A stretch of DNA of 12,051 nucleotides, from NCBI GenBank assembly GCA_009782725.1, contig WRIM01000010.1:1-12051 (forward strand), written 5' to 3'. The position numbers and the translations under genes were made by a program. Source of the stretch: Alphaproteobacteria bacterium. GTDB taxonomy: Bacteria; Pseudomonadota; Alphaproteobacteria; Rs-D84. Within the stretch, counting starts at the first letter, position 1, and the number at the start of each line of letters is the position of its first letter. The notes beneath the pieces are model-generated. The model searched no databases and was not told where the DNA came from. It was given only the letters and a program-made list of their open reading frames with translations. Shown piece after piece: positions 1,754 to 12,051 of this stretch.

Positions 1754-2440
1754 TTAAAAATATTTATGAAGGCTTTGTCCGTTTTTGGAAAGCCATGACT
1801 TTGCGCGCTCTACGCCGGGGCCGTATAAAACGCGCACCAACGCCCAGAATTGCGGCGAATGATCCATGTGCCGCATGTGCGACAATTCATGCATAATGAC
1901 ATAGCGCATAATCTGCGGCGGCGCAAAGGCCAAACGCCACGAGAACGACATTGTCCCGGTGCTTGAACAGCTTCCCCACCGGCTTGACGTGTCGCGCACG
2001 GCGACGCGCTTTGGACGGAATTCTAATGGCACGGCCGCGATTTCACGCTTTACGGCATTCAAGAATTGCTTTTTTATTTCATCCCGAACGCGCCGCTCGA
2101 AAAATTCGGGCGCGCCGCCTACAACGATTGCGGATTGCTGATTTATGATTGCTGATTTATCGTTCGTTATGATTACTTCTTCGCCGAAAATTGTTATTGT
2201 GTCGCCCGGATTCAATTTGCTTTTCACCGGGGCGCGGGCGAATATGCGTTCAAGCCACCTGCGCTTTTCTTCGACGAAAGTAACCGCGCGCGCATGACCC
2301 GTCCACCGCGGCAGCGTTATATGAAGCTCGCGCACGGGGGCGACTTTGGGTCTCAGCACGATGTTTCGCACCCCGGATTTAGTTGTAAAAATAATCGGAA
2401 TTTCTTCGCCGGTTGATAACGTAAAATTATCGTTCTTCAT
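1754..2440 (-). CDS. YgjP-type M48-like zinc metallopeptidase
   Basis: A 228-residue cytosolic protein of the YgjP/DUF45 family, predicted zinc-dependent peptidases. The N-terminal half (1-110) is a beta-rich region with the family pattern IVLRPKVAPVRELHITLPR and GDTITIFGEEVII. The C-terminal half carries the conserved RDTSSRWGSCSSTGTMSFSWRL (150-170) and the HExxH zinc site HELSH (184-188); His194 in HMDHSPQFW is the likely third ligand. Length is normal for the family. Its ATG overlaps the tkt stop by 4 nt (ATGA), so it is probably translationally coupled. Residues about 95-108 (DKSAIINQQSAIV) are encoded by a 35-bp heptamer repeat that sits in a hairpin or loop before the helical segment. 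The physiological substrate is not known. Confidence in family assignment is high. Confidence 0.92.
   Translation of the reverse strand: MKNDNFTLSTGEEIPIIFTTKSGVRNIVLRPKVAPVRELHITLPRWTGHARAVTFVEEKRRWLERIFARAPVKSKLNPGDTITIFGEEVIITNDKSAIINQQSAIVVGGAPEFFERRVRDEIKKQFLNAVKREIAAVPLEFRPKRVAVRDTSSRWGSCSSTGTMSFSWRLAFAPPQIMRYVIMHELSHMRHMDHSPQFWALVRVLYGPGVERAKSWLSKNGQSLHKYF
2126..2160 (-). repeat. Heptamer repeat, site A, inside ygjP (5 x 7 bp)
   Basis: On the coding strand five consecutive 7-mers read ATAAATC, AGCAATC, ATAAATC, AGCAATC, CGCAATC. All end in AATC. The 14-bp pair ATAAATCAGCAATC is repeated exactly in tandem (2133-2160). The codon phase is the same as at sites B, C and D. In this orientation there is no stop; reversed, TGA would appear. 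Confidence 0.85.
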
Positions 2441-4365
2441 TTCTTTATGTTCTTTCGGATTCTGGCCGCGATAGATGATGCATCGAATCCAAAATGCTTA
2501 TAGACTTCCGCGCCCGGCCCGCCTTCGCCGAACGTGTCTATTCCGACGATGTCGTCCGCGAATTCATGCCAAGCGTATGTCGCGCCGGCTTCGATCACGG
2601 TGACATGGCCACGCAATATTGTGCGCTTGTATTTATCGGAATGCAAGCGGAAAATTTCGCATGACGGCATGCTGACCACGTTGGCGGAAACCTTGGCGGA
2701 GGCAAGCTTTTTTTGTACTTCCAGCGCCAATGAAACCTCTGACCCGGTTGCTATTATTGTAACCGTCGGGCGCGGTGATTCGGAAATTATATATCCGCCG
2801 TACTCTATGTCGTCGGGTGCGGCCACGTCCGGCGGATTCGGGAAATCTTGACGTGTCAGCACCAACGCGACCGGGCCGTCTTCGCACCGCAATGCGAATT
2901 CCATGCATGACGCAACCTCGGCCGCATTGCACGGCCGCATAACAATCATGTTTGGAATCATGCGCAATGATGCAAGATGTTCAATCGGTTGATGCGTTAC
3001 GCCGTCTTCGCCAAGCGCCACAGAATCATGCGTGAACACATATAGTACGGGTTGTTTCATCAATGCGGAAAGTCGGATTGCGGGACGCATATAATCGCTG
3101 AACACCAAGAATGTTCCGCCATAAGGACGAAATCCAGACAAAGCCAATCCGTTCATAATCGCGGCCATTCCATGCTCTCGCACTCCATAACGGATATAAT
3201 TGCCGCGATAGTCGCCCGCCTTGATATCTTTCGCATCATCGGGCCGGGTATTATTGCTTGGCGTTAAATCGGCGCTTCCCCCGATTATTTTATCCGGCCA
3301 AGCATCAAGCGTGATTTTAATGGCGCGACCGAAAATTCTGCGCGTAGATTCCGGTTTGGTCGAAGGCGCCAAGGTCGCAATAATATCCGGTATCGGCAAA
3401 TCAAAGACAACGTCTTTGGTTTCCGGCGACTCTGAAAATGTCGGGGTATTGATTTTTATATTCCGCAAACGCGCCCACAAAGCGTCCGCATTCGCTTGAA
3501 TCGTAAACGGCGGGCCGTCGCGCCCCAACTTTTGATATACCGCCGCCGCGTCCGCCGCGGTTAACGGAGTGCCATGAACCGTGGCCGTGCCTGCAAGTTC
3601 CGACAAATACCCGATTTGCGTTTTGCATACGATAAGGGTCGGCTTTTTCAAGCGACGCGTTAGGGTCAGCGCGCGGTTTATTTCAAGCGTATTCATGCCG
3701 TCGATTTCAATGGTTGCCCAATTTGCGGCCAAAAACCGCGCGGGCATATCTTCGCTTGTCGCAACTTTCCCGTCGATTGAAATCCCGTTGTCGTCCCACA
3801 TTACGACAAGATTATCCAATTTATAATGTCCGGCGAATGAAATTGCTTCTTGGGATATTCCTTCCATTAAATCGCCGTCGGAACACATGCAATAGATTTG
3901 AGGTTTGAAGTTTGAAGTTTGAGATTCGCGGGCAGATTTTATTTTTGTGGCCAATGCCATTCCAACAGCATTTGCAAGGCCTTGGCCCAGTGGGCCGGTC
4001 GAGGTTTCTATGCCGGGAAGCGCGCCGTATTCCGGATGCCCTTGGGTTCTTGCGCCCAATTGGCGGAACGCACGCAAATCATCGACCGATACATCATATC
4101 CAGACAAATACAGCGTCGCGTAAAGCATCGCGGACGCGTGCCCCATGGACAGCACAAAGCGGTCTCGGTCAGCCCAATCAGGAACGTTCGGATTAAACCG
4201 CAAATGGTTTGCAAACAATGTCGTAATAACATCCGCCATGCCTAACGGCGCGCCGGGATGTCCGCTTTGCGCGGCTTGGACTTGGTCGATTGACAATGCA
4301 CGGACAGCGTTGGCCATGGCGCGCAGCTCTATTGCGTTAAAATTGTCGCGTCGATTGAAAAGCAT
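2437..4365 (-). CDS. tkt: Transketolase
   Basis: A 642-residue thiamine-diphosphate enzyme moving two-carbon ketol units between sugar phosphates in the non-oxidative pentose phosphate pathway. The full domain series is present: N-terminal ThDP domain with SGHPGAPLGMA (His36), GHASAML (His76), GPLGQGLANAVGMA (124-137), the metal-binding SDGDLMEGIS (162-171, with Ser where many enzymes have Gly) and DDNGISIDG (191-199); the Pyr domain with catalytic Glu397 in YGVREHGMAA and FTHDSVALGEDGVTHQP (444-460); and the C-terminal domain with FGEGGPGAEVYKHFGF. Length is near the usual 660. Residues about 147-158 (ESQTSNFKPQI), just before the metal loop, are encoded by a 35-bp heptamer repeat; the loop is not clearly longer than in relatives, so the repeat seems to replace native loop sequence. 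First gene of the operon with ygjP and the META lipoprotein. Shine-Dalgarno is weak (GAG). Confidence 0.97.
   Translation of the reverse strand: MLFNRRDNFNAIELRAMANAVRALSIDQVQAAQSGHPGAPLGMADVITTLFANHLRFNPNVPDWADRDRFVLSMGHASAMLYATLYLSGYDVSVDDLRAFRQLGARTQGHPEYGALPGIETSTGPLGQGLANAVGMALATKIKSARESQTSNFKPQIYCMCSDGDLMEGISQEAISFAGHYKLDNLVVMWDDNGISIDGKVATSEDMPARFLAANWATIEIDGMNTLEINRALTLTRRLKKPTLIVCKTQIGYLSELAGTATVHGTPLTAADAAAVYQKLGRDGPPFTIQANADALWARLRNIKINTPTFSESPETKDVVFDLPIPDIIATLAPSTKPESTRRIFGRAIKITLDAWPDKIIGGSADLTPSNNTRPDDAKDIKAGDYRGNYIRYGVREHGMAAIMNGLALSGFRPYGGTFLVFSDYMRPAIRLSALMKQPVLYVFTHDSVALGEDGVTHQPIEHLASLRMIPNMIVMRPCNAAEVASCMEFALRCEDGPVALVLTRQDFPNPPDVAAPDDIEYGGYIISESPRPTVTIIATGSEVSLALEVQKKLASAKVSANVVSMPSCEIFRLHSDKYKRTILRGHVTVIEAGATYAWHEFADDIVGIDTFGEGGPGAEVYKHFGFDASSIAARIRKNIKK
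3895..3929 (-). repeat. Heptamer repeat, site B, inside tkt (5 x 7 bp)
   Basis: Coding-strand units are GCGAATC, TCAAACT, TCAAACT, TCAAACC, TCAAATC, exactly 35 bp. The opening GCGAATC is identical to that of site C. It encodes E-S-Q-T-S-N-F-K-P-Q-I in the loop before the ThDP/metal motif of transketolase. Confidence 0.9.
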
Positions 4366-4391
4366 TACATTCTCGTCTTATTTGTGATAGC

Positions 4392-4421
4392 ATTATAGAA
4401 TGAAATTAATAGGAAATGCAA
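4392..4421 (-). promoter_or_regulatory. Predicted tkt operon promoter
   Basis: On the minus strand the -35 is TTGCAT (4421-4416), the spacer is 18 nt, and the -10 is a perfect TATAAT (4397-4392). The start would be near 4385-4388, giving a leader of about 20 nt. The -35 lies immediately before the divergent rnhA start codon, so the two genes share a 57-bp intergenic region. I could not pick a convincing promoter for rnhA. Confidence 0.55.
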
Positions 4422-4422
4422 T

Positions 4423-4848
4423 ATGATAAAAATCTGGACTGACGGTTCTTGTTTGGGTAATCCCGGGCCGGGGGGATGGGCATTTATTGCCACAGACGGC
4501 GCAAAAACCGTGGAACGTTCGGGCGGAGAAAATCCGACCACGAACAACCGTATGGAATTAATGGCGGTGATTCGCGCGCTGTCCATTATTAAAAACCGCG
4601 AAGTGGAAATTCACACGGATTCGCAATACGTAAAAAACGGCATGCAGACTTGGATGAAAAATTGGAAGCGCAATAATTGGCGCACTGCGGATAAAAAACC
4701 GGTAAAGAATCAAGATTTATGGCAGAAATTGGACGAGCTTGCAGCCGAATTTAAAATAGAATGGGTATGGGTGCGCGGGCATGACGGCAATCCGATGAAC
4801 GAACGCGCGGACGAATTGGCGCGATGCGCGGCGGAATCTAGTTTTTAA
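4423..4848 (+). CDS. rnhA: Ribonuclease HI
   Basis: A 141-residue endonuclease that cuts the RNA strand of RNA-DNA hybrids (R-loops, Okazaki primers). The catalytic set is complete: Asp7 (WTDGSCLGNPGPGGWA), Glu45 (NNRMELMAVI), Asp66 (HTDSQYV), His120 (VRGHDGNPMNERADELA) and Asp130. The basic-protrusion helix region (WMKNWKRNNWRTADKKPVKN, 77-96) is present, as in E. coli RNase HI. It lacks the N-terminal hybrid-binding domain of RNase HII-like or eukaryotic H1 enzymes. AGGA lies 8 nt before ATG. It is divergent from tkt, and its last 11 bp overlap the 3' end of rlmE on the other strand; no terminator hairpin is visible at this junction. Confidence 0.97.
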   Translation: MIKIWTDGSCLGNPGPGGWAFIATDGAKTVERSGGENPTTNNRMELMAVIRALSIIKNREVEIHTDSQYVKNGMQTWMKNWKRNNWRTADKKPVKNQDLWQKLDELAAEFKIEWVWVRGHDGNPMNERADELARCAAESSF

Positions 4849-5473
4849 ATCCCAATCCGACTATGAACATTTCAACGCTGTCTTTGCGGGATGCGCCGGG
4901 TTTGATATGCGCGACTTTATCAAAGTGCTTTTTTATGTCATTCAACAATTCATTCGTAGTGCCGCCGGTAAAAGATTTCGCAACGAAAGTTCCGCCTGGC
5001 TTTAAAGTTTCTTTGGCGAAATCCCACGCGTATTCCAACAAAGTCATTTGGCGAAGATGATCGGTTTTTTGATGCCCCGTCGTGTTCGGCGCCATGTCTG
5101 ACAAAACTACATCTATTTTATCCGGCGCTTTTTCGTTCAGCCAGGCAAGCGCCTCGTCCGTTGTGAAATCGCCTTCGTAAAATTCGACATTCGGGATTGG
5201 TTTTATGGCCAGTAAATCCATAGCAATAACATGCGATTTTGGAAACTCGCGCGCGATATATTGCGACCAAGAACCCGGCGCGGCGCCCAAATCCACCACA
5301 ACCTGACCGTCTTTTAAAAATTTATATTTATCGTTGATTTCGGTCAGCTTGTAAACGGCGCGCGCGCGATAGCCTTCTTTGTGCGCGCGTTCCACGTACG
5401 GATCTTTCGCCTGGCGTTGAAGCCATGCGACGGAAGATTTTTTCGATGCAATTTTTTTGTTCGTTATTTTCAT
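4838..5473 (-). CDS. rlmE: 23S rRNA 2'-O-ribose methyltransferase RlmE (FtsJ/RrmJ)
   Basis: A 211-residue SAM-dependent methyltransferase that modifies U2552 (E. coli numbering) in the A-loop of 23S rRNA during late 50S assembly. The SAM-binding motif VDLGAAPGSWSQY is at 60-72. The K-D-K-E catalytic tetrad is complete: Lys42 (RAVYKL), Asp126 (LSDMAPNTTG), Lys166 (FVAKSFTGG) and Glu201 (DSVEMFIV). A lysine-rich N-terminal tail precedes the WLQRQAKDPYVERAHKEGYRARA segment. The start codon overlaps the stop of the upstream unknown gene by 4 nt (ATGA), indicating translational coupling. It is last in the minus-strand run that contains ffh. Its usual companions (ftsH in gammaproteobacteria, ppx in many alphaproteobacteria) are not adjacent here. 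Confidence 0.95.
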   Translation of the reverse strand: MKITNKKIASKKSSVAWLQRQAKDPYVERAHKEGYRARAVYKLTEINDKYKFLKDGQVVVDLGAAPGSWSQYIAREFPKSHVIAMDLLAIKPIPNVEFYEGDFTTDEALAWLNEKAPDKIDVVLSDMAPNTTGHQKTDHLRQMTLLEYAWDFAKETLKPGGTFVAKSFTGGTTNELLNDIKKHFDKVAHIKPGASRKDSVEMFIVGLGFKN

Positions 5474-5967
5474 GTTGTGATTTTATCGCGTTTCGACTGC
5501 GATAATTGTTGAAGCCTTTCTTTTTCGGTTTTTTGCAGTTCTTGGAATGCAAGGTGTTTATCCCGGAATGCTTTTGCCTTTTTCGGATTTGTGAACCAAC
5601 TGGGTTTTTCTTTGCCGTCCATATAAGTCAAAACCACCATATGTTCGATTTTACGTTTTCCGAATCTTTTAACCATTTCGATTTCAGAAACCGTATCAAG
5701 ACATTTCGCAAGGGCTTTGTTATAAAAATCATTCGCGTCATTTTTTGCAAAATCTCCGTAAAACACTGATCGACAAACGCCGGCATTTTCGTATGCCACC
5801 CATACATAATAAAACGGTTGCGACACGGGTTCCGGTTTTTTATCGGAGTCTAACATTTCCCAAAAGTCTTTTGGCGCAGGTACTTTGCGTTCGTTGAATT
5901 TCGGCTCTGTTATCGATACGACCGGCCCTTTGAATACATATCGTAAAAGCGAGTTCTTGATATTCAT
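5470..5967 (-). CDS. Unknown 165-residue protein coupled to rlmE
   Basis: I do not recognise a family. The protein has no signal peptide or membrane segment. It has an aromatic-rich beta-like core (FYYVWVAYENAGVCRSVFYGDF, about 52-73), a central alpha-rich part (FYNKALAKCLDTVSEIEMVKRFGKRKIEHMVVLTYMDGKEKPSWF) and a very charged, probably helical or coiled-coil tail (AKAFRDKHLAFQELQKTEKERLQQLSQSKRD). Two cysteines lie at about 65 and 89. AAGGA is 6 nt before ATG, and the gene overlaps rlmE by 4 nt and follows ffh by 36 nt, so it is very probably expressed with them. The basic tail and ribosome-related neighbours would suit an RNA- or ribosome-linked role, but that is guilt by association only. 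Confidence 0.8.
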   Translation of the reverse strand: MNIKNSLLRYVFKGPVVSITEPKFNERKVPAPKDFWEMLDSDKKPEPVSQPFYYVWVAYENAGVCRSVFYGDFAKNDANDFYNKALAKCLDTVSEIEMVKRFGKRKIEHMVVLTYMDGKEKPSWFTNPKKAKAFRDKHLAFQELQKTEKERLQQLSQSKRDKITT

Positions 5968-6003
5968 TTATATTCCTTTGCGTTATTCTCTCTCGCTTTT
6001 ATT

Positions 6004-7335
6004 CTAACTATCCGCGCCCGGCATGTTCTTCATCATCTCCATTAATTTGTCGGGGCTTCCGAACGATGATAATTGTTTCATTTGGCTGCGCATTTTTTCA
6101 AAGTTTTTTAACAATGCCTCGACATCACGAACGGATACTCCCGCGCCCGATGCGATGCGCGCCTTGCGCGATGCCAATATTATTTCGGGATGCGCGCGTT
6201 CGGGTGGCGTCATGGATTGAATTATCGCCATTTGTTTGTTTATCGCGCCGTCGGTCGCCTTGTCCTTTAACGCGCCGGCCATTTGCGACATGCCCGGAAT
6301 TAATTTTATAAGCGCGCCGATGCTTCCCATTTTCTTAATCTGTTTTATTTGCTTCATCATATCGTCCAGAGTAAATTCCCCGCTGAACATTTTCATCATC
6401 GTGTTTTCGGCGTCTTTTTCGGATATGTGTTCTTGGGCTTTTTCGACCAACGACACTACGTCGCCCATGCCCAAAATGCGCGACGCCACGCGGTCGGGAT
6501 AAAATGGCTCAATGTCGCCTATCTTTTCCCCGGTGCCGGTGAATAATACGGGCGCGCCGGTCTCACAGCGCATAGACAATATCGCCCCGCCCCGCGCGTC
6601 GCCGTCCGCGCGCGTCATTATCAATCCCGTGATGCCCAATTGATTGTTGAATTCGCGCGCAACGTTCAATGATTCTTGGCCGGCCATTGCGTCGGCCGTA
6701 AGCATGATGTCGGTCGGATTCAGAATCTTTTTCAAGTCGCGCAGCTCGGTCATCAAGGCTTCATCGATTTGCAAACGCCCGGCGGTATCGATTATTAAAA
6801 CATCGCTTTTATTTTCTTTTAAAGCGCGGCGCGCAATATCGGCCGGCTTTTCGTTTTCGATGATTGGTAATGAATCCGCGCCCGCCTGACGCGCAAGCAT
6901 TTCAAGTTGTTCGCGCGCGCTTGGGCGATAGATATCGGTGGACGCAAGCGTAACGGAACGCCCTGACTTTTTATAATGCAACGCCAATTTGCCCGCGGTT
7001 GTGGTTTTCCCGGTGCCTTGAAGTCCCACAAGCATGATTATTTGTGACGTGTGATTTGTGACTTGTGATTCGCCGCCAAGAATGTTAACCAATTCGTCGT
7101 ATACGATTTTCGCAACTTGTTCCGCTGGTTTTATATTATCAATGATTTTTTGACCGGTCGCTTTGTCTTTAATCTCTGCAAGCATTTTTTTTACAACGGG
7201 CAACGCCACGTCAGCTTCAAGCAGCGCGATGCGGATTTCAGACAAAGCATCGTCAAGCATGTCGGCCGTCAAATGCGTACGCCCTGTTAATTTCGCAAAA
7301 GTAGTACCGAGTCTTCGGGTTAAATTATCAAACAT
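6004..7335 (-). CDS. ffh: Signal recognition particle GTPase Ffh (SRP54)
   Basis: A 443-residue SRP protein that binds signal sequences of nascent inner-membrane proteins together with SRP RNA and docks with FtsY. The N domain is at 1-85. The G domain has G1 GLQGTGKTT (104-112), DTAGRLQIDE (183-192), TRADGDARGG (241-250) and GTGEKIGDIEPF (267-278). The methionine-rich M domain (about 310-443) carries the finger-loop region GSIGALIKLIPGM and the RNA-binding RIASGAGVSVRDVEALL (393-409; commonly RIAxGSG). MFDNLTRRLG is a canonical start. There is no Shine-Dalgarno, and a promoter predicts a leaderless mRNA. Residues 89-99 (ESQVTNHTSQI), linking the N and G domains, are encoded by a 35-bp heptamer repeat. 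It is not followed by rpsP-rimM-trmD, the common arrangement. The SRP RNA gene is not in the window. Confidence 0.97.
   Translation of the reverse strand: MFDNLTRRLGTTFAKLTGRTHLTADMLDDALSEIRIALLEADVALPVVKKMLAEIKDKATGQKIIDNIKPAEQVAKIVYDELVNILGGESQVTNHTSQIIMLVGLQGTGKTTTAGKLALHYKKSGRSVTLASTDIYRPSAREQLEMLARQAGADSLPIIENEKPADIARRALKENKSDVLIIDTAGRLQIDEALMTELRDLKKILNPTDIMLTADAMAGQESLNVAREFNNQLGITGLIMTRADGDARGGAILSMRCETGAPVLFTGTGEKIGDIEPFYPDRVASRILGMGDVVSLVEKAQEHISEKDAENTMMKMFSGEFTLDDMMKQIKQIKKMGSIGALIKLIPGMSQMAGALKDKATDGAINKQMAIIQSMTPPERAHPEIILASRKARIASGAGVSVRDVEALLKNFEKMRSQMKQLSSFGSPDKLMEMMKNMPGADS
7039..7073 (-). repeat. Heptamer repeat, site C, inside ffh (5 x 7 bp)
   Basis: Coding-strand units are GCGAATC, ACAAGTC, ACAAATC, ACACGTC, ACAAATA, exactly 35 bp. 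It encodes E-S-Q-V-T-N-H-T-S-Q-I in the linker between the N and G domains, and the same codon phase is used as at site B. Confidence 0.9.
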
Positions 7336-7341
7336 GCTGAG

Positions 7342-7370
7342 ATTTTACACCGGTAATAAGGGAATTGCAA
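7342..7370 (-). promoter_or_regulatory. Predicted ffh promoter, leaderless transcript
   Basis: On the minus strand the -35 is TTGCAA (7370-7365), the spacer is 17 nt, and the -10 is TAAAAT (7347-7342). Exactly 6 nt (CTCAGC) then lead to the A of the ffh ATG at 7335, the usual distance to a transcription start. The -35 begins one base after the uvrA stop codon. It is the best leaderless candidate in the window. Confidence 0.55.
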
Positions 7371-7371
7371 A

Positions 7372-10194
7372 CTATTTCAAATATCTTTTTAAATACTTGC
7401 CTGTGGGGGATTCGGGGATTTTTGCGACCGCTTCGGGCGTGCCGGCGGCCACGACCATACCGCCCGCGTCGCCCCCGCCCGGGCCCAAATCGATGACCCA
7501 ATCCGCGGTTTTGATTACTTCCAAATTGTGTTCGATTACGATAACCGTATTGCCCGCATCCGCCAATTCATGCAGAACCGAAAGCAACATTTTGATGTCT
7601 TCGAAATGCAATCCCGTGGTCGGTTCGTCCAATATATACAGAGTGCGACCGGTGCTGCGCGCCGCCAATTCTTTGGATAATTTTACACGCTGAGCCTCTC
7701 CGCCTGACAATTCCAACGAAGATTGCCCCAATTTGATATAGTCCAATCCTACGCGTTTTAATAATTCCAATTTATTTTTAATCAGCGGGACATTTATAAA
7801 GAATCTGTACGCTTCATCGACGGTCATATTCAATACGTCCGCAATGGATTTGTCTTTGTATTTTACTTTCAACGTTTCGTCGTTATATCGCGCGCCGTGA
7901 CATACGTCGCATTCGACATAAACGTCGGGCAAGAAATTCATTTCTATTTTTATGCTGCCGTCGCCTTGGCATGCTTCGCACCTTCCGCCTTTGACATTGA
8001 AAGAGAATCTGCCGGCGGCATATCCGCGCGCCTTAGACTCTGGCAATGCGGCATAAAAATCACGAATATGAGTAAACAACCCGGTATACGTCGCCGGATT
8101 AGAACGCGGGCTTCGCCCGATTGGCGATTGATCGATATCGACGACTTTGTCGATATTTTCAATGCCAGTTATTTTATCATGCGCGCCGATATCAAATTTC
8201 GAACCGTGAAGCGCGCGCATAATCGCGGGATACAAAGTATTAATCAACAGCGTTGATTTCCCGGAACCAGAAACCCCAGTCAGCGCGATTAATTTCCCAA
8301 GCGGAATTTCAACATTAACATCTTTTAAATTATTCGCGCGCGCGCCCTTGATTACAATTTTTTCACCTGTGCCGGCGCGCCGCGACTTTGGAGTATCGAT
8401 TTTCTTTTTCCCGGCCAAATATTGCCCCGTTAATGAATCTTTGTTTTTTATAACGACATCCGGAGTGCCGGCGGCAACAATGTTTCCGCCGTGAACGCCC
8501 GCCGCGCGGCCAATGTCGATAAGGTAATCGGCGGCGCGCATCGCGTCTTCGTCATGTTCGACAACGATAACAGTATTGTCTTTATCGCGCAGAGTTTTCA
8601 AAGTATCCAACAATTTATCATTGTCGGATTGATGCAGACCAATGGACGGCTCGTCCAAAACATAAAGCACGCCCGTCAATCCCGAACCGATTTGCGAGGC
8701 AAGACGAATGCGCTGCGCTTCGCCGCCGCTGAGCGTTCCGGCATTGCGCGACAGCGTCAAATATCCCAATCCCACGTTCTGCAAAAATTCAAGACGCGAC
8801 GTGATTTCGCGCAATATTACGCGCGCGATTTCGTTTTGTTTTTGCGTCAAATGCGCGGGCAATTCACGAAACCATTCAAGCGATTTCTTCACAGACATTT
8901 CGGACACGTCCATTATGTCTTTGCCATTTATTTTGACGCATAACGCTTGGATATTCAAACGCTTTCCGTGACATATCGGGCATGGGCGCGCCGATTGAAA
9001 TTTTTCCAAGAATTCGCGCATCATGGCGGAGTCGGATTCGCGCCAGCGACGCTCTAAATTTCCCATTACTCCTTCGAACGGCTTGTCATATTCATACCCG
9101 TTCCAATTGATATGTATCGGAGTATCTCCCGTGCCGTATAATATTAAATTTTGCTGTTCTTCGGTCAGACTGTTCCAAGGCTTTGACATTGGGATTTTGT
9201 ATTGCTTTGAAAGTGCTTCCAACAAATGTTCATATTGGGTAATCATGCCGCCGCGCGACCAAGGCGCAATCGCGCCTTCGCGCAAGCTTAACGTTCCGTC
9301 CGGCACAACCAATGCCGGCGACATATTTAATTGTATGCCTAATCCGTCGCACGAAGTGCATGCGCCGACCGGCGCATTGAATGAAAACAATCGCGGCTCT
9401 ATTTTCGGAACTGTGAATCCGGATACGGGGCACGCGAATTCTTGGGAATATAAAATGTCTTCGTTGGTGTCAAGACGGCGCACCAAAACGCTTCCCGGCA
9501 CAAGGCGAAGAGAAGATTCGAACGAAGCAGAAAGCCGAGACACGAATTCATCATCGTCTTTGTTCGGTATCGCCAATCTGTCCACTATTACAAAAATATT
9601 ATGCTTTTTATTCTTATCCAAATTCGGCGGCGCAGATAAATTTGCCAATTCGCCGTCTATTATCGCGCGCTGATACCCTTGCTTTACCAAAAACGCCAAT
9701 TCTTTTTTATATTCGCCTTTGCGTTCGCGCACCAACGGCGCCATGACGTAAATCTTGGTGCCGGCGGGAATTTTCATCGTCCATTCGACCATTTCCGGAA
9801 TGGTCTGCGAAGATATGGGCAAACCGGTCACGGGAGAATGCGGCACGCCGACGCGTGCCCAAAGCAAACGGAAATAATCATAAATTTCGGTTACCGTCCC
9901 AACGGTCGAGCGCGGATTTTTCGACGTGGTTTTTTGCTCTATGGCGATTGCGGGGGACAAACCTTCGATAAAATCGACATCCGGCTTACGCTGCATATCC
10001 AAAAACTGACGCGCATAGGACGATAAAGATTCCACATATCGGCGTTGTCCTTCGGCGTAAATGGTATTGAATGCAAGGCTTGATTTGCCCGAACCAGACA
10101 CGCCTGTAATGACCACCAATTTGTTCTTTGGTATGTCGATATCGATATTTTTCAAGTTGTTTTCGCGTGCGCCGCGAATTTTTATAGCGTTCAT
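7372..10194 (-). CDS. uvrA: UvrABC excision nuclease subunit A
   Basis: A 940-residue damage-recognition ATPase of nucleotide excision repair, which loads UvrB at lesions. It is a tandem ABC protein with Walker A GVSGSGKS at 31-38 and 640-647, signatures LSGGEAQR at 488-495 and 829-836, and Walker [10 protein letters not shown] (513-521) and LDEPTTGLH (855-863). Zinc modules: Cys255 and Cys279/Cys282 in the first (CPVSGF has Ser258 where E. coli has Cys), CPICHG at 405-410, and the intact Cys739/742/762/765 module (CEAC...CDVC). Length is standard. [16 protein letters not shown] is the usual N-terminus, so the ATG is secure although no Shine-Dalgarno precedes it. The stop lies 36 nt before ffh; a uvrA-ffh pairing is not a standard operon. 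SOS control is not evident: I see no LexA-like box upstream. Confidence 0.98.
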
Positions 10195-10203
10195 AATGGG
10201 GGT

Positions 10204-10231
10204 AATATAAGGGATTTCCGAAAAATTACAA
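10204..10231 (-). promoter_or_regulatory. Predicted uvrA promoter, near-leaderless
   Basis: On the minus strand the -35 is TTGTAA (10231-10226), the spacer is 16 nt, and the -10 is TATATT (10209-10204). Six nt after the -10 is A10197, giving an mRNA that would begin ATTATG with a 3-nt leader. No Shine-Dalgarno is present upstream of the ATG. It lies in the 42-bp gap after the rodZ-like gene. Confidence 0.42.
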
Positions 10232-10236
10232 GGGCA

Positions 10237-11055
10237 TTATTCAGAAATCAACGCCGCCGGCGACAAAGTAATCCCAGATTTGCGCGTATGGTCTGCGCCC
10301 AATTTCGGGGCAAGTTTGCCATTGACATAAACATCCAATCCACCCGCGTTTCCGACGGTTGCTTTGGGTCCCGTCGCCGGCGCATAGTACACGTCGCCCG
10401 GCATCATCACGCGAGAGAAAAGCGTAGAGCCTTTGGAGTCTTCGACTTTCAGCCATGTTTCCGCATTCGCTTGCAAAATTACCGATGCCGCCCCGCGATT
10501 TTCCGTGCCGAATTGTTCTTTGACCGGGATTTTATATTCGGGCACGGGCATTTGCGCCAAATCTTGGGCCGCGTCAATCGGCGCGTTATCAGTTCTTTGA
10601 TTATTTGCGACCATGGATACAAGGTAAAATCCCGCGATTATTACCAATATCACCACAACCAACCCGGCAAGCCATTTCCAAAAGCGCACGATATTCGATA
10701 TTACGCGCCCGATGAAGCTTCGAACAATCGACAATATTCCGCGACGTGGCTTTACGGGCACGGGGACAGGCTCGCTTTCATCGTTTTCTTTGATAATTCC
10801 CATTTCCAGCTTGATTTTATTTACGATTATATCCGGGTCAAGTTCCAACTCTATGGCCAAATTGCGCGCAAAGCCCAACAAATACACCAATTCTGGGATT
10901 TTTTTGTATTCGCCCGTCTCAATCGCTTCCAAAAAGTCTTCGCGTATGCACAATTGCCGCGCTATGGTGGTCAACTCGCGCTTTCTGCGACCCGTTGTGC
11001 GGGCGTGCTTTAAAAGTTCTGCTGCGGTTTTCCCAAAGTAAATATCATTGGACAT
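10237..11055 (-). CDS. rodZ: RodZ-like membrane protein: cytoplasmic HTH, one TM helix, C-terminal beta domain
   Basis: A 272-residue bitopic inner-membrane protein resembling RodZ, which links MreB filaments to the elongasome. Residues about 8-70 form the HTH_25-type domain (ELLKHARTTGRRKRELTTIARQLCIREDFLEAIETGEYKKIPELVYLLGFARNLA). A proline-rich, basic linker (95-125) is followed by one transmembrane helix (about 128-149, WLAGLVVVILVIIAGFYLVSMV). The periplasmic part has a short linker and a DUF4115-like beta domain (190-265, SVILQANAETWLKVEDSKGSTLF...DVYVNGK). AAGGA is 6 nt before ATG. The order (inside N-terminus, positive residues before the TM) fits RodZ topology. Positively charged residues before the helix agree with the inside-positive rule. 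It is shorter than E. coli RodZ (337 residues), mainly in the linker. A generic HTH membrane regulator is the alternative. Confidence 0.88.
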   Translation of the reverse strand: MSNDIYFGKTAAELLKHARTTGRRKRELTTIARQLCIREDFLEAIETGEYKKIPELVYLLGFARNLAIELELDPDIIVNKIKLEMGIIKENDESEPVPVPVKPRRGILSIVRSFIGRVISNIVRFWKWLAGLVVVILVIIAGFYLVSMVANNQRTDNAPIDAAQDLAQMPVPEYKIPVKEQFGTENRGAASVILQANAETWLKVEDSKGSTLFSRVMMPGDVYYAPATGPKATVGNAGGLDVYVNGKLAPKLGADHTRKSGITLSPAALISE

Positions 11056-11080
11056 ATTTTTTCCTTTTTATTTGTCTGAC

Positions 11081-11108
11081 ATTATAAATTAATCAAAGCG
11101 ATGCGCAA
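11081..11108 (-). promoter_or_regulatory. Predicted rodZ promoter
   Basis: On the minus strand the -35 is TTGCGC (11108-11103), the spacer is 16 nt, and the -10 is a perfect TATAAT (11086-11081). The start near 11074 leaves about a 20-nt leader that keeps the AAGGA Shine-Dalgarno. The -35 lies within the last codons of dus. Confidence 0.55.
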
Positions 11109-12051
11109 CCGAAAAATTCCGCGATCGTTTTTTCTAATTCGGATGCATTGGATATTTGGTTTACGCGCACACGGAATGGCGCCGAATCCGGCATCCCCGC
11201 ACTGTACCATGCGGCATGTTTGCGAAACAACGGCACGCCCGCGCGTTCGCCGTAATATTCGACAATCGAATGCAAATGCTCAAGAATCAAATCGACATTC
11301 TTTATTTGCGGTTTGTGATTGGTTAATTCGCCAAGCAGCCAAGGATTTCCAAGAATCGCGCGGCCAATCATCGCGCCGTTCGCGCCCAATTTCTCAACCG
11401 CCGACATATCATCCCGCGTCTTTATATCGCCGTTGAATATTATTGGAAAGTCTTTAAATTGCGCTTTGAGTTTTGCGCATTCGTTCCAATCCGCCCGGCC
11501 CGCATAACCCGCCGCGCGCGTGCGGCCATGGATTGTTGCAAATTGCGCGCCCTCTTCCCGCGCGATTTTTATTAATTCGGCAGAATCAAGATGCGACGCA
11601 TCCCACCCAAGTCGCGTTTTTACAGACACCGGGATTTTCACCGCACGCGCAACAGCCGCAACAATGCGCCCGGCCAACGCATGATCGCGCATAAGGAATG
11701 CGCCCGCACCCGCCTTTGTCGCAACTTTGGGCACCGGGCATCCCATGTTTATATCGATCCATGATGCGCCGCTTTGCTCTAAAATTTTGGCGCCGTCCGC
11801 CATTATTTTCGGATCGGCCCCGAATATCTGCGCGCCAATTAATCCCATGTCCGCATATGTATCAAAATTGCGACGATTCCCGGTGGTAAAGTCGCGTTTC
11901 CCGCGGTGTGTAAGCGCATGACATGAAATCATCTCGGTCAGTAATGGCGCGCCAGGCGCGCATTTGCGAAGAATTTGCCGATACGGCTGGTCGGTGATGC
12001 CCGCCAGCGGCGCCGCGAATATGGGCGGGGGAATGATAAGATTCTTAAGAT
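11093..12051 (-). CDS. dus: tRNA-dihydrouridine synthase, DusB/NifR3 type, N-terminus cut by window edge
   Basis: An FMN enzyme that reduces specific uridines in tRNA with NADPH. The frame is open to the right edge: residues before the first internal Met read LIIPPPIFAAPLAGITDQPYRQILRKCAPGAPLLTEMISCHAL, the classic Dus N-terminus. Only a few residues are therefore missing, and a start at 11932 would be wrong. Seen in order: FMN-site APLAGITDQPYR, the catalytic Cys in NMGCPVPKVATKAGAG, VSVKTRLGWD, the HGRTRAAGYAGRADW phosphate/tRNA region, FNGDI, and GANGAMIGRAILGNPWLLGEL, then a short helical C-terminal domain. Closest to DusB/NifR3 by GCPVPKV and GNPWL, but subfamily is less certain than family. 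Residues ELTNHKPQI after GNPWLLG are encoded by heptamer repeat D. It is the first visible gene of the minus run; 37 nt separate it from rodZ. Confidence 0.93.
   Translation of the reverse strand, partial: LKNLIIPPPIFAAPLAGITDQPYRQILRKCAPGAPLLTEMISCHALTHRGKRDFTTGNRRNFDTYADMGLIGAQIFGADPKIMADGAKILEQSGASWIDINMGCPVPKVATKAGAGAFLMRDHALAGRIVAAVARAVKIPVSVKTRLGWDASHLDSAELIKIAREEGAQFATIHGRTRAAGYAGRADWNECAKLKAQFKDFPIIFNGDIKTRDDMSAVEKLGANGAMIGRAILGNPWLLGELTNHKPQIKNVDLILEHLHSIVEYYGERAGVPLFRKHAAWYSAGMPDSAPFRVRVNQISNASELEKTIAEFFGCASL
11303..11331 (-). repeat. Heptamer repeat, site D, inside dus (degenerate, 29 bp)
   Basis: Coding-strand units are GCGAATTA (8 bp, one base longer), ACCAATC, ACAAACC, GCAAATA. 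The first and last units closely match those of site C (GCGAATC and ACAAATA). It encodes E-L-T-N-H-K-P-Q-I in the variable segment after GNPWLLG. It is weaker than sites A-C because of the 8-bp unit and the smaller number of units. Confidence 0.65.

Follow-up and report, generated by a model that had tools for sequence, protein, structure and literature searches.

Dispersed heptamer arrays of many words and one format in an Rs-D84 alphaproteobacterium, and arrays with other words in its relatives

Tandem heptamers make up the short tandemly repeated repetitive (STRR) sequences of cyanobacteria, and the palindromic elements of Rickettsia are small repeats that lie in frame in many protein genes, with longer palindromic units and a conserved family sequence. 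Here we compare described systems of dispersed repeats with period-7 arrays found in the genome (G000) of Alphaproteobacteria bacterium GCA_009782725.1 (Rs-D84 lineage). The window is a 12,051-nucleotide stretch of this genome (contig WRIM01000010.1, C10), which carries such arrays in the ygjP, tkt and ffh genes.

The closest description concerns Geobacter metallireducens. In the passages of PMC2700814 cited here, 49 elements, found both in genes and between them, contain four heptanucleotide repeats, class 3 has five tandem heptanucleotides at 15 of its 16 sites, in opposite-strand pairs, and class 1 has four tandem octanucleotides in opposite-strand pairs at variable distance. These elements were taken for regulatory RNA elements or for sites to which regulators bind. 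The Xanthomonas repeat GGGAATC is described as dispersed heptamers, mostly of four units with some variable positions, forming 70 and 75 close pairs on opposite strands (PMC4692102), and the Beggiatoaceae word TAACTGA as many dispersed arrays of two to six copies, a few of them inside genes (PMC4679880). As far as these accounts go, heptamer arrays of four to five units, opposite-strand pairs and intragenic copies are already known, one word at a time and in single lineages; many word families per genome and a heavy presence in essential genes seem to be new. A literature search found no report of such arrays for this lineage, a weak negative given that most subscription journals lay outside its coverage.

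Arrays were surveyed in contigs C1–C20 of G000 (243,768 bp, about one-third of the genome, which is assembled into 723 kb in 131 contigs and is 79.5% complete). At the main cut-off, a run score of at least 12, these 244 kb contain 90 period-7 runs and 0–4 runs for each other period from 2 to 13; the 64 and 25 runs at periods 14 and 21 are harmonics of period 7. One Markov shuffle of the sample gave 0–1 run per period and none at period 7. The preliminary description of the window had proposed a comparison with codon-preserving shuffles, and its expectation held: the 222 predicted genes (205 kb) contain 36 runs at this cut-off, versus 0–2 in each of ten synonymous-codon shuffles. An early search with a heptamer pattern is not used as a statistic, its control being confounded (the reversed pattern gave 18+23 matches versus 3+20), in our reading by other heptamer words that match the reversed pattern.

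The arrays of G000 have a characteristic size, with a median of 32 nt (interquartile range 30–34, n = 90), or about 4.5–5 units. In a length-excess profile, for which the threshold was lowered to 8 and the other periods were subtracted as background, the excess is 5.5 at 14–17 nt, 2.2 at 18–20, 2.0 at 21–23 and 10.5 at 24–26, and the main peak follows with 21.8 at 27–29 nt, 37 at 30–32, 22 at 33–35 and 14 at greater lengths. The spread of lengths expected of stepwise slippage was not found, the peak lying at 30–32 nt with few short arrays. When the arrays are aligned by word, a layout of about five cores is common (four AACT-aac units plus AACT, four CAAA-gag plus CAAA, four TAGATA-n plus TAGATA), and in many arrays the cores vary less than the spacers. 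Only where a word has constant spacers, as AACTAAC and CAAAGAG do, does a fixed end carry information, because variable spacers force the ends onto cores.

What the G000 arrays have in common is this format, not a sequence. Three sub-threshold window sites were added by hand to the 90 runs, and the resulting 93 arrays underlie the counts of exact words, location, pairing and stop words. They carry 36 exact words, mostly A+C-rich on one strand, and the alignments by word revealed no common sequence beyond the word family. With neighbours collapsed, 61 loci carry 30 words, where two random models give 58.2 and 55.1 on average; words are shared by unlinked loci, and the single ACAARTC family initially suggested gives way to many. 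The Geobacter classes, as described, have one word each (GGACCGG, MTYCTGA and GTTGCTYN; PMC2700814), unlike G000 with its 36 words and with 38 of 93 arrays in genes. None of these three words was noticed among the listed G000 words, although no search was aimed at them, and TAACTGA is absent from the G000 unit list. A vocabulary common to the whole phylum was considered and rejected: the exact 24-mer AAAGTTCAAAGTTCAAAGTTCAAA occurs in only one of 249 genomes, G000 itself, and AATCACR arrays occur in four of 95 family genomes.

The location of the arrays also departs from the first impression, gained from the window, that all copies lie within genes. Besides the 38 arrays inside predicted genes, 19 are at gene ends and 36 are intergenic; predicted genes account for 84% of the sequence, so that the non-genic part is enriched in arrays. 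Of the same-word neighbours no more than 250 bp apart, 23 pairs are inverted and one, a doubtful case with slightly different words, is direct. The other family genomes yielded 12 inverted and no direct neighbours, and the 257-kb sample of the relative G008, some loci of which also belong to the wider family sample, yielded nine inverted and no direct at pitch 7 and seven and none at pitch 8. An inverted partner of the same word accompanies 27 of the 36 intergenic arrays, 10 of the 19 at gene ends and 7 of the 38 inside genes. The 244 kb contain 54 long inverted repeats; the arms of 30 of them are 7-periodic and enclose loops of 8–193 nt. The loops of two array hairpins (L029:10036-10145 and L032:9016-9150) carry a common palindrome around TTGTCCAATATATTGGACAA, perhaps an operator.

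With four to five tandem heptamers and opposite-strand pairs at variable distance, the G000 arrays resemble the Geobacter elements as described (PMC2700814). They differ from the Xanthomonas repeat, in its published account one G-rich, quadruplex-forming word that is 89–93% intergenic and has 2–26 units (PMC4692102), and from the Beggiatoaceae repeat, for which the cited passages report one word, one indirect (inverted) set and a position mostly just upstream of start codons (PMC4679880). Inverted, hairpin-forming pairs with less conserved spacers, together with dispersed singlets, also characterize REPINs, hairpin-forming doublets of repetitive extragenic palindromic (REP) sequences, in the accounts cited (PMC3116915, PMC3733652). 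According to the same accounts, the palindromic REPs carry a GTAG or CGTC end and are linked to a REP-associated tyrosine transposase (RAYT), whereas the arms in G000 are direct heptamer arrays (PMC3116915, PMC3733652). No common GTAG or CGTC end appears in the G000 alignments by word.

The window sites and their host genes are as follows.

1754..2440, minus strand: ygjP-like metallopeptidase gene (PF01863, 132 bits), host of the first array
2126..2160, minus strand: ygjP array, ATAAATC AGCAATC ATAAATC AGCAATC CGCAATC, encoding KSAIINQQSAI
2437..4365, minus strand: transketolase gene, tkt (PF00456, PF02779; best solved match 2e6k), host of the second array
3895..3929, minus strand: tkt array of TCAAACT units, with its periodic part at 3897-3922 and preceded by the host codons CGC GAA
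6004..7335, minus strand: ffh, signal recognition particle protein gene (PF00448, PF02978, PF02881; best solved match 2xxa), host of the third array
7039..7073, minus strand: ffh array, encoding ESQVTNHTSQI in the linker between the N domain and the GTPase domain
11093..12049, minus strand: dus, tRNA dihydrouridine synthase gene (PF01207, 257 bits), extending to the contig end
11303..11331, minus strand: dus site, a doubtful or decayed array, not significant alone

Heptamer repeats had been described at all four sites, with correct coordinates, and all are on the coding (minus) strand of YgjP, transketolase, Ffh and Dus; three of them stand out from 300 synonymous-codon shuffles per gene, and the fourth does not. 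The observed value was reached by 2 of 300 shuffles for ygjP (lag-7 identity 21/28, lag-14 identity 18/21), by 0 of 300 for tkt (lag-7 identity 22/28, run score 16) and by 0 of 300 for ffh (lag-7 identity 19/28), whose array lies between the N domain (aa 5–82) and the GTPase domain (aa 98–289). At the dus site (lag-7 identity 11/22), the fraction of shuffles reaching the observed value was 0.49, that is, no excess. By eye, a CACCAGC/CACCAGT stretch with period 7 lies at the same Dus loop in a relative (L044), and the dus site may be a decayed array. No excess over the shuffles was found in the five other window genes of the test (rnhA-like, rlmE-like, unnamed ORF, uvrA and rodZ-like), which covered the window except for the genes at 1-911, 1159-1353 and 1356-1739. 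The opening unit GCGAATC, once thought to be shared by the sites, dissolves into host codons, because relatives share these letters in tkt (CGC GAA) and dus (GGC GAA TTA) without this array; the ygjP site opens differently. None of the window arrays has a same-word inverted partner in the G000 lists of arrays and inverted repeats. Inverted pairing, the many word families and the change of words between related species are features beyond the reach of the window. Rfam gave no match in the window at gathering thresholds, including positions 1000-1140, where short inverted repeats around CCTGCTGCGGCAGGAGG precede a small ORF (1159-1353).

In G000, 35 arrays sit in open frames supported by homology, and the genes hosting arrays have varied functions. 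This in-frame presence in protein genes is a likeness to the Rickettsia palindromic elements; unlike these, the arrays have no common family sequence, and no long inverted repeat was found in the window contig (L033). In the 35 coding arrays, the stop words that a perfect array would place in frame are altered in 17 of 17 cases, a necessity for any open frame, and the out-of-frame stop words in 8 of 48. In some arrays the would-be stop unit is the only deviating one, as in AAATTGA AAATTGA AAATGGA AAATTGA (L024:10023-10055). We infer from the altered stop words that arrays carried variants when first translated, which fits the entry of ready-made arrays. Arrays read in the T-rich direction near protein starts (L027:7163, L027:11490, L030:4590) encode hydrophobic stretches that look like signal-peptide cores.

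By its Ffh protein, the closest named database record is the metagenome-assembled genome (MAG) Cu122P5bin52 (WQUT01000028), at 68% identity, and the two closest Ffh proteins carry the database names 'Alphaproteobacteria bacterium' and 'Rickettsiales bacterium'. We take termite guts to be the source of such MAGs. The Ffh linker holds heptamer arrays in G000, G001, G011 and, by eye, G020; the array of G011, a three-contig assembly, is at the same site as that of G000. The linkers of G016 and G004 lack an array, that of G009 has a hexamer repeat, and G008 and G015 have other palindromic inserts, GC-rich in G008 (L138, L044) and similar to ATTCCCCGGTTTAACCGGGGAAT in G015 (L132), the latter presumably akin to Neisseria dRS3. 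Different species have different words at the same loops, and database proteins show array-like peptides of many words at the same Ffh and KsgA positions. A peptide test at a strict threshold gave 9 of 61 Ffh and 5 of 55 KsgA proteins. The test is weak: the figures are low estimates, given that it missed the arrays of G000 itself (Ffh, 20 versus a threshold of 21; KsgA, 21 versus 22), and its null includes real arrays.

Array density varies widely among relatives. At a run score of at least 13, G000 has 84 runs in its 244 kb, G001 of the same genus 10 in 283 kb and G011 14 in 417 kb. At least one run is present in 9 of the 21 family relatives with readable samples, and G020 has one in its Ffh locus; the negatives are weak, five samples being under or near 7 kb. 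Other families of the order, with 13 readable samples, and Bacillota, with 1.35 Mb of loci, yielded no run. The rest of the family gave 61 arrays with other words, 49 of them 25–34 nt long. The 257 kb of G008 also contain 17 arrays of pitch 8, of which 16 have AGTGACA-type cores and 11 are 33–39 nt long. These differences are best read as a turnover of word families, new ones taking the place of old as lineages diverge. G000 shows the five-core format sharply, G008 as a tendency; the following arrays are from G008.

L160:14009-14123, L274:5999-6162, L278:4658-4781, L279:10504-10624 and L281: octamer arrays AGTGACAN in inverted pairs
L271:1229-1523, L272:3092-3351, L278:7992-8064 and L282:6551-6647: long arrays

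Tentatively, we favour the reading that the arrays are REPIN-like dispersed mini-elements, existing arrays being copied as units by template switching or a single-strand activity. The element, about 32 nt long in G000, would consist of about five short cores (about 3–6 nt), one every 7 nt, the letters between them being more variable, and the whole array would be copied to new places rather than grown in place. Copies would be mostly single inside genes and mostly inverted pairs between genes, and one genome would hold many families, each being a word and its pitch. Spread might proceed by ectopic template switching in replication, or by a single-strand or hairpin transposition activity; coding copies would be tolerated rather than useful, and the lack of a recognisable SbcD could let inverted pairs persist. 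Copying of a defined unit had already been preferred over independent slippage from the window, and the size peak, the recurring words and the scarcity of short arrays support that preference; the accompanying picture of a small repeat that is limited to a lineage, has a defined size in G000 and occupies tolerant positions of proteins is likewise upheld.

Several observations weigh against this reading. No single gain event was seen in a sample without a close-strain pair, and no target-sequence duplication was noted by eye beside the printed pairs. The arms of pairs are no more similar to each other (0.928) than unlinked arrays of the same word (0.937), and the long arms of G008 have no common unit order; ordered copying of one arm from the other therefore does not account for the pairs. 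Mirror copying of arms, hinted at by a few pairs (L037, L043), was not borne out in general. Of the 51 pitch-7 arrays of G008, only 23 are 27–35 nt long, 14 being shorter and 14 longer. Compared with the best relative (above 50% identity), 20 of 24 comparisons show a net change in protein length between -3 and +5 aa; the remaining four are +10, +20, +28 and +28 aa, the last two being the arms of one hairpin at the KsgA start. Judging from these alignments, replacement of earlier sequence or later trimming would be more frequent than plain insertion, and some of the replaced sequence resembles an older decayed array (G001 and G011, by eye). Finally, no mobiliser was found: a REP-type transposase gene is present in G000, yet none was found in the array-rich G002, and RVT_1, present in 17 of 40 genomes, was not found in G000 or G011.

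Candidate enzymes were sought across 40 relatives. Neither a Y1/REP transposase nor a reverse transcriptase follows the arrays, and both were rejected as the mobiliser. Loss of MutS was also rejected, its domain being present in G000 and in 35 of the 40 genomes. So was loss of SbcD as a family-specific cause: TIGR00619 is above its cut-off in 0 of the 40 (two weak matches), array-rich or not, and SbcD absence is at most permissive. Among 14 controls, 13 were matched by TIGR00619, eight of them over the cut-off, and the unmatched one was the alphaproteobacterium Caulobacter; the model may miss the protein, or the class may lack SbcD. Two reverse transcriptases of about 350–400 aa were seen in relatives (L238:1120-2343 and L239:1306-2370), and no model reaches the NCBIfam cut-off for them. 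They have an LGNQTSQ motif, which we take to be typical of diversity-generating retroelements.

A wider claim, which we regard as doubtful, is that such arrays form a format-defined class of mobile mini-elements (about five cores, a 7- or rarely 8-nt pitch, inverted pairs) with replicative spread, which would time and again overwrite the same sites in essential proteins (loops, linkers and signal peptides) and would include the Geobacter, Xanthomonas and Beggiatoaceae reports.

Rather unlikely, in our estimate, is polymerase slippage in place, with 7 nt as a favoured length and independent growth at many sites, perhaps in bursts of an error-prone polymerase. Heptanucleotides are reported as the commonest long simple repeats, an excess explained by the length of DNA contacting the polymerase (Mrazek 2007, as cited in PMC4679880 and PMC4692102), and G000 resembles long simple sequence repeats and STRRs, as described, in that tandem heptamers exceed other periods. 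Intergenic arrays show similar unit-to-unit variation at all lags, which would suit slippage, as would the 14 of 51 pitch-7 arrays of G008 below 27 nt and the six of 73–108 nt (five of the ACCAACG/ACTAACG type and one CCACCGA; four form two inverted pairs). These looser sizes in G008 indicate that slippage can act on arrays. Unlike the repeats so described, however, the arrays have a five-unit size peak, inverted pairing and many words in a small genome. Growth in place also agrees poorly with the few arrays of two or three units in G000, with identical words at unlinked loci, with neighbours that are inverted rather than direct and with the confinement of pitch 8 to one word family in G008 (16 of 17); moreover, adding 7 nt at a time would break the ffh and tkt frames at most steps.

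That selection keeps the arrays as binding sites, perhaps in pairs recognised by a nucleoid protein or an RNA-binding protein, appears quite unlikely. In its favour, many arrays vary less in their cores than in their spacers, most intergenic arrays have a partner, and the paired Geobacter sites were so interpreted in the cited passages, with IHF and HU as candidates (PMC2700814). However, the 36 exact words of G000, with others in relatives, would need many proteins, 38 of the 93 arrays lie inside genes of varied functions, and pitches 7 and 8 coexist.

Mobilisation of the arrays as REPINs by the REP-associated tyrosine transposase of G000 is very unlikely, even though inverted pairs plus singlets are the architecture described for REPINs (PMC3116915) and the gene at G000:C9:4508-5131 encodes a Y1 protein close to the REP_Tyr_transpos family (Pfam Y1_Tnp, 31.1 bits, above the cut-off; NCBIfam REP_Tyr_transpos, 70.7 bits, below the cut-off of 80). 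Most words lack a GTAG end, and, unlike with REPs, the transposase is not consistently present with arrays: neither this protein nor Y1_Tnp has a match in the array-rich, 95% complete G002, and among 40 genomes the protein is matched in G000, G004, G008 and G014 only. A separate hairpin family, GTAGGGGCG, is a more natural partner of the Y1 gene, a partnership that must be qualified: the 244 kb of G000 contain 15 copies, but the 417 kb of G011, where no such transposase was found, contain 35. The least probable explanation, hardly credible despite the 131 contigs and 79.5% completeness of the G000 assembly, is an artefact of assembly or a by-product of codon usage, given the 36 runs versus 0–2 in synonymous shuffles, the near-emptiness of other periods, the ffh array at the same site in the three-contig G011 and the array-like peptides at the same loops in database proteins.

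Two other kinds of elements were observed. Inverted pairs beginning with TGTAGGGGCG, like GTAG-type REPs, occur at L026:11890-11986, L026:16118-16186, L032:4747-4836, L032:10480-10574, L038:4349-4417 and L041:6095-6190, and one copy of this type sits in frame within the Y1 transposase gene G000:C9:4508-5131. Seven hairpins have a conserved 22-nt loop (around gtattRaacatac), similar flanks and differing stems with perfect or near-perfect pairing; they are a candidate structured RNA or mobile element.

L025:903-964, L026:6800-6853, L026:14113-14174, L029:1294-1355, L029:8160-8221, L034:2642-2701 and L035:2609-2670: hairpins with the 22-nt loop

If the arrays described here move as units, they would be a second REPIN-like class in bacteria, independent of any one sequence and of any known transposase, and the loops of essential proteins would be rewritten in frame by them. 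Separate, unexplained reports of heptamer repeats could then be tested in one framework. Peptides such as NHESRITNH, SSKFKVQSS and NQQSAI appear to gene finders and structure predictors as unexplained inserts; if the reading is true, new linkers and signal peptides would naturally arise from the arrays that encode them.

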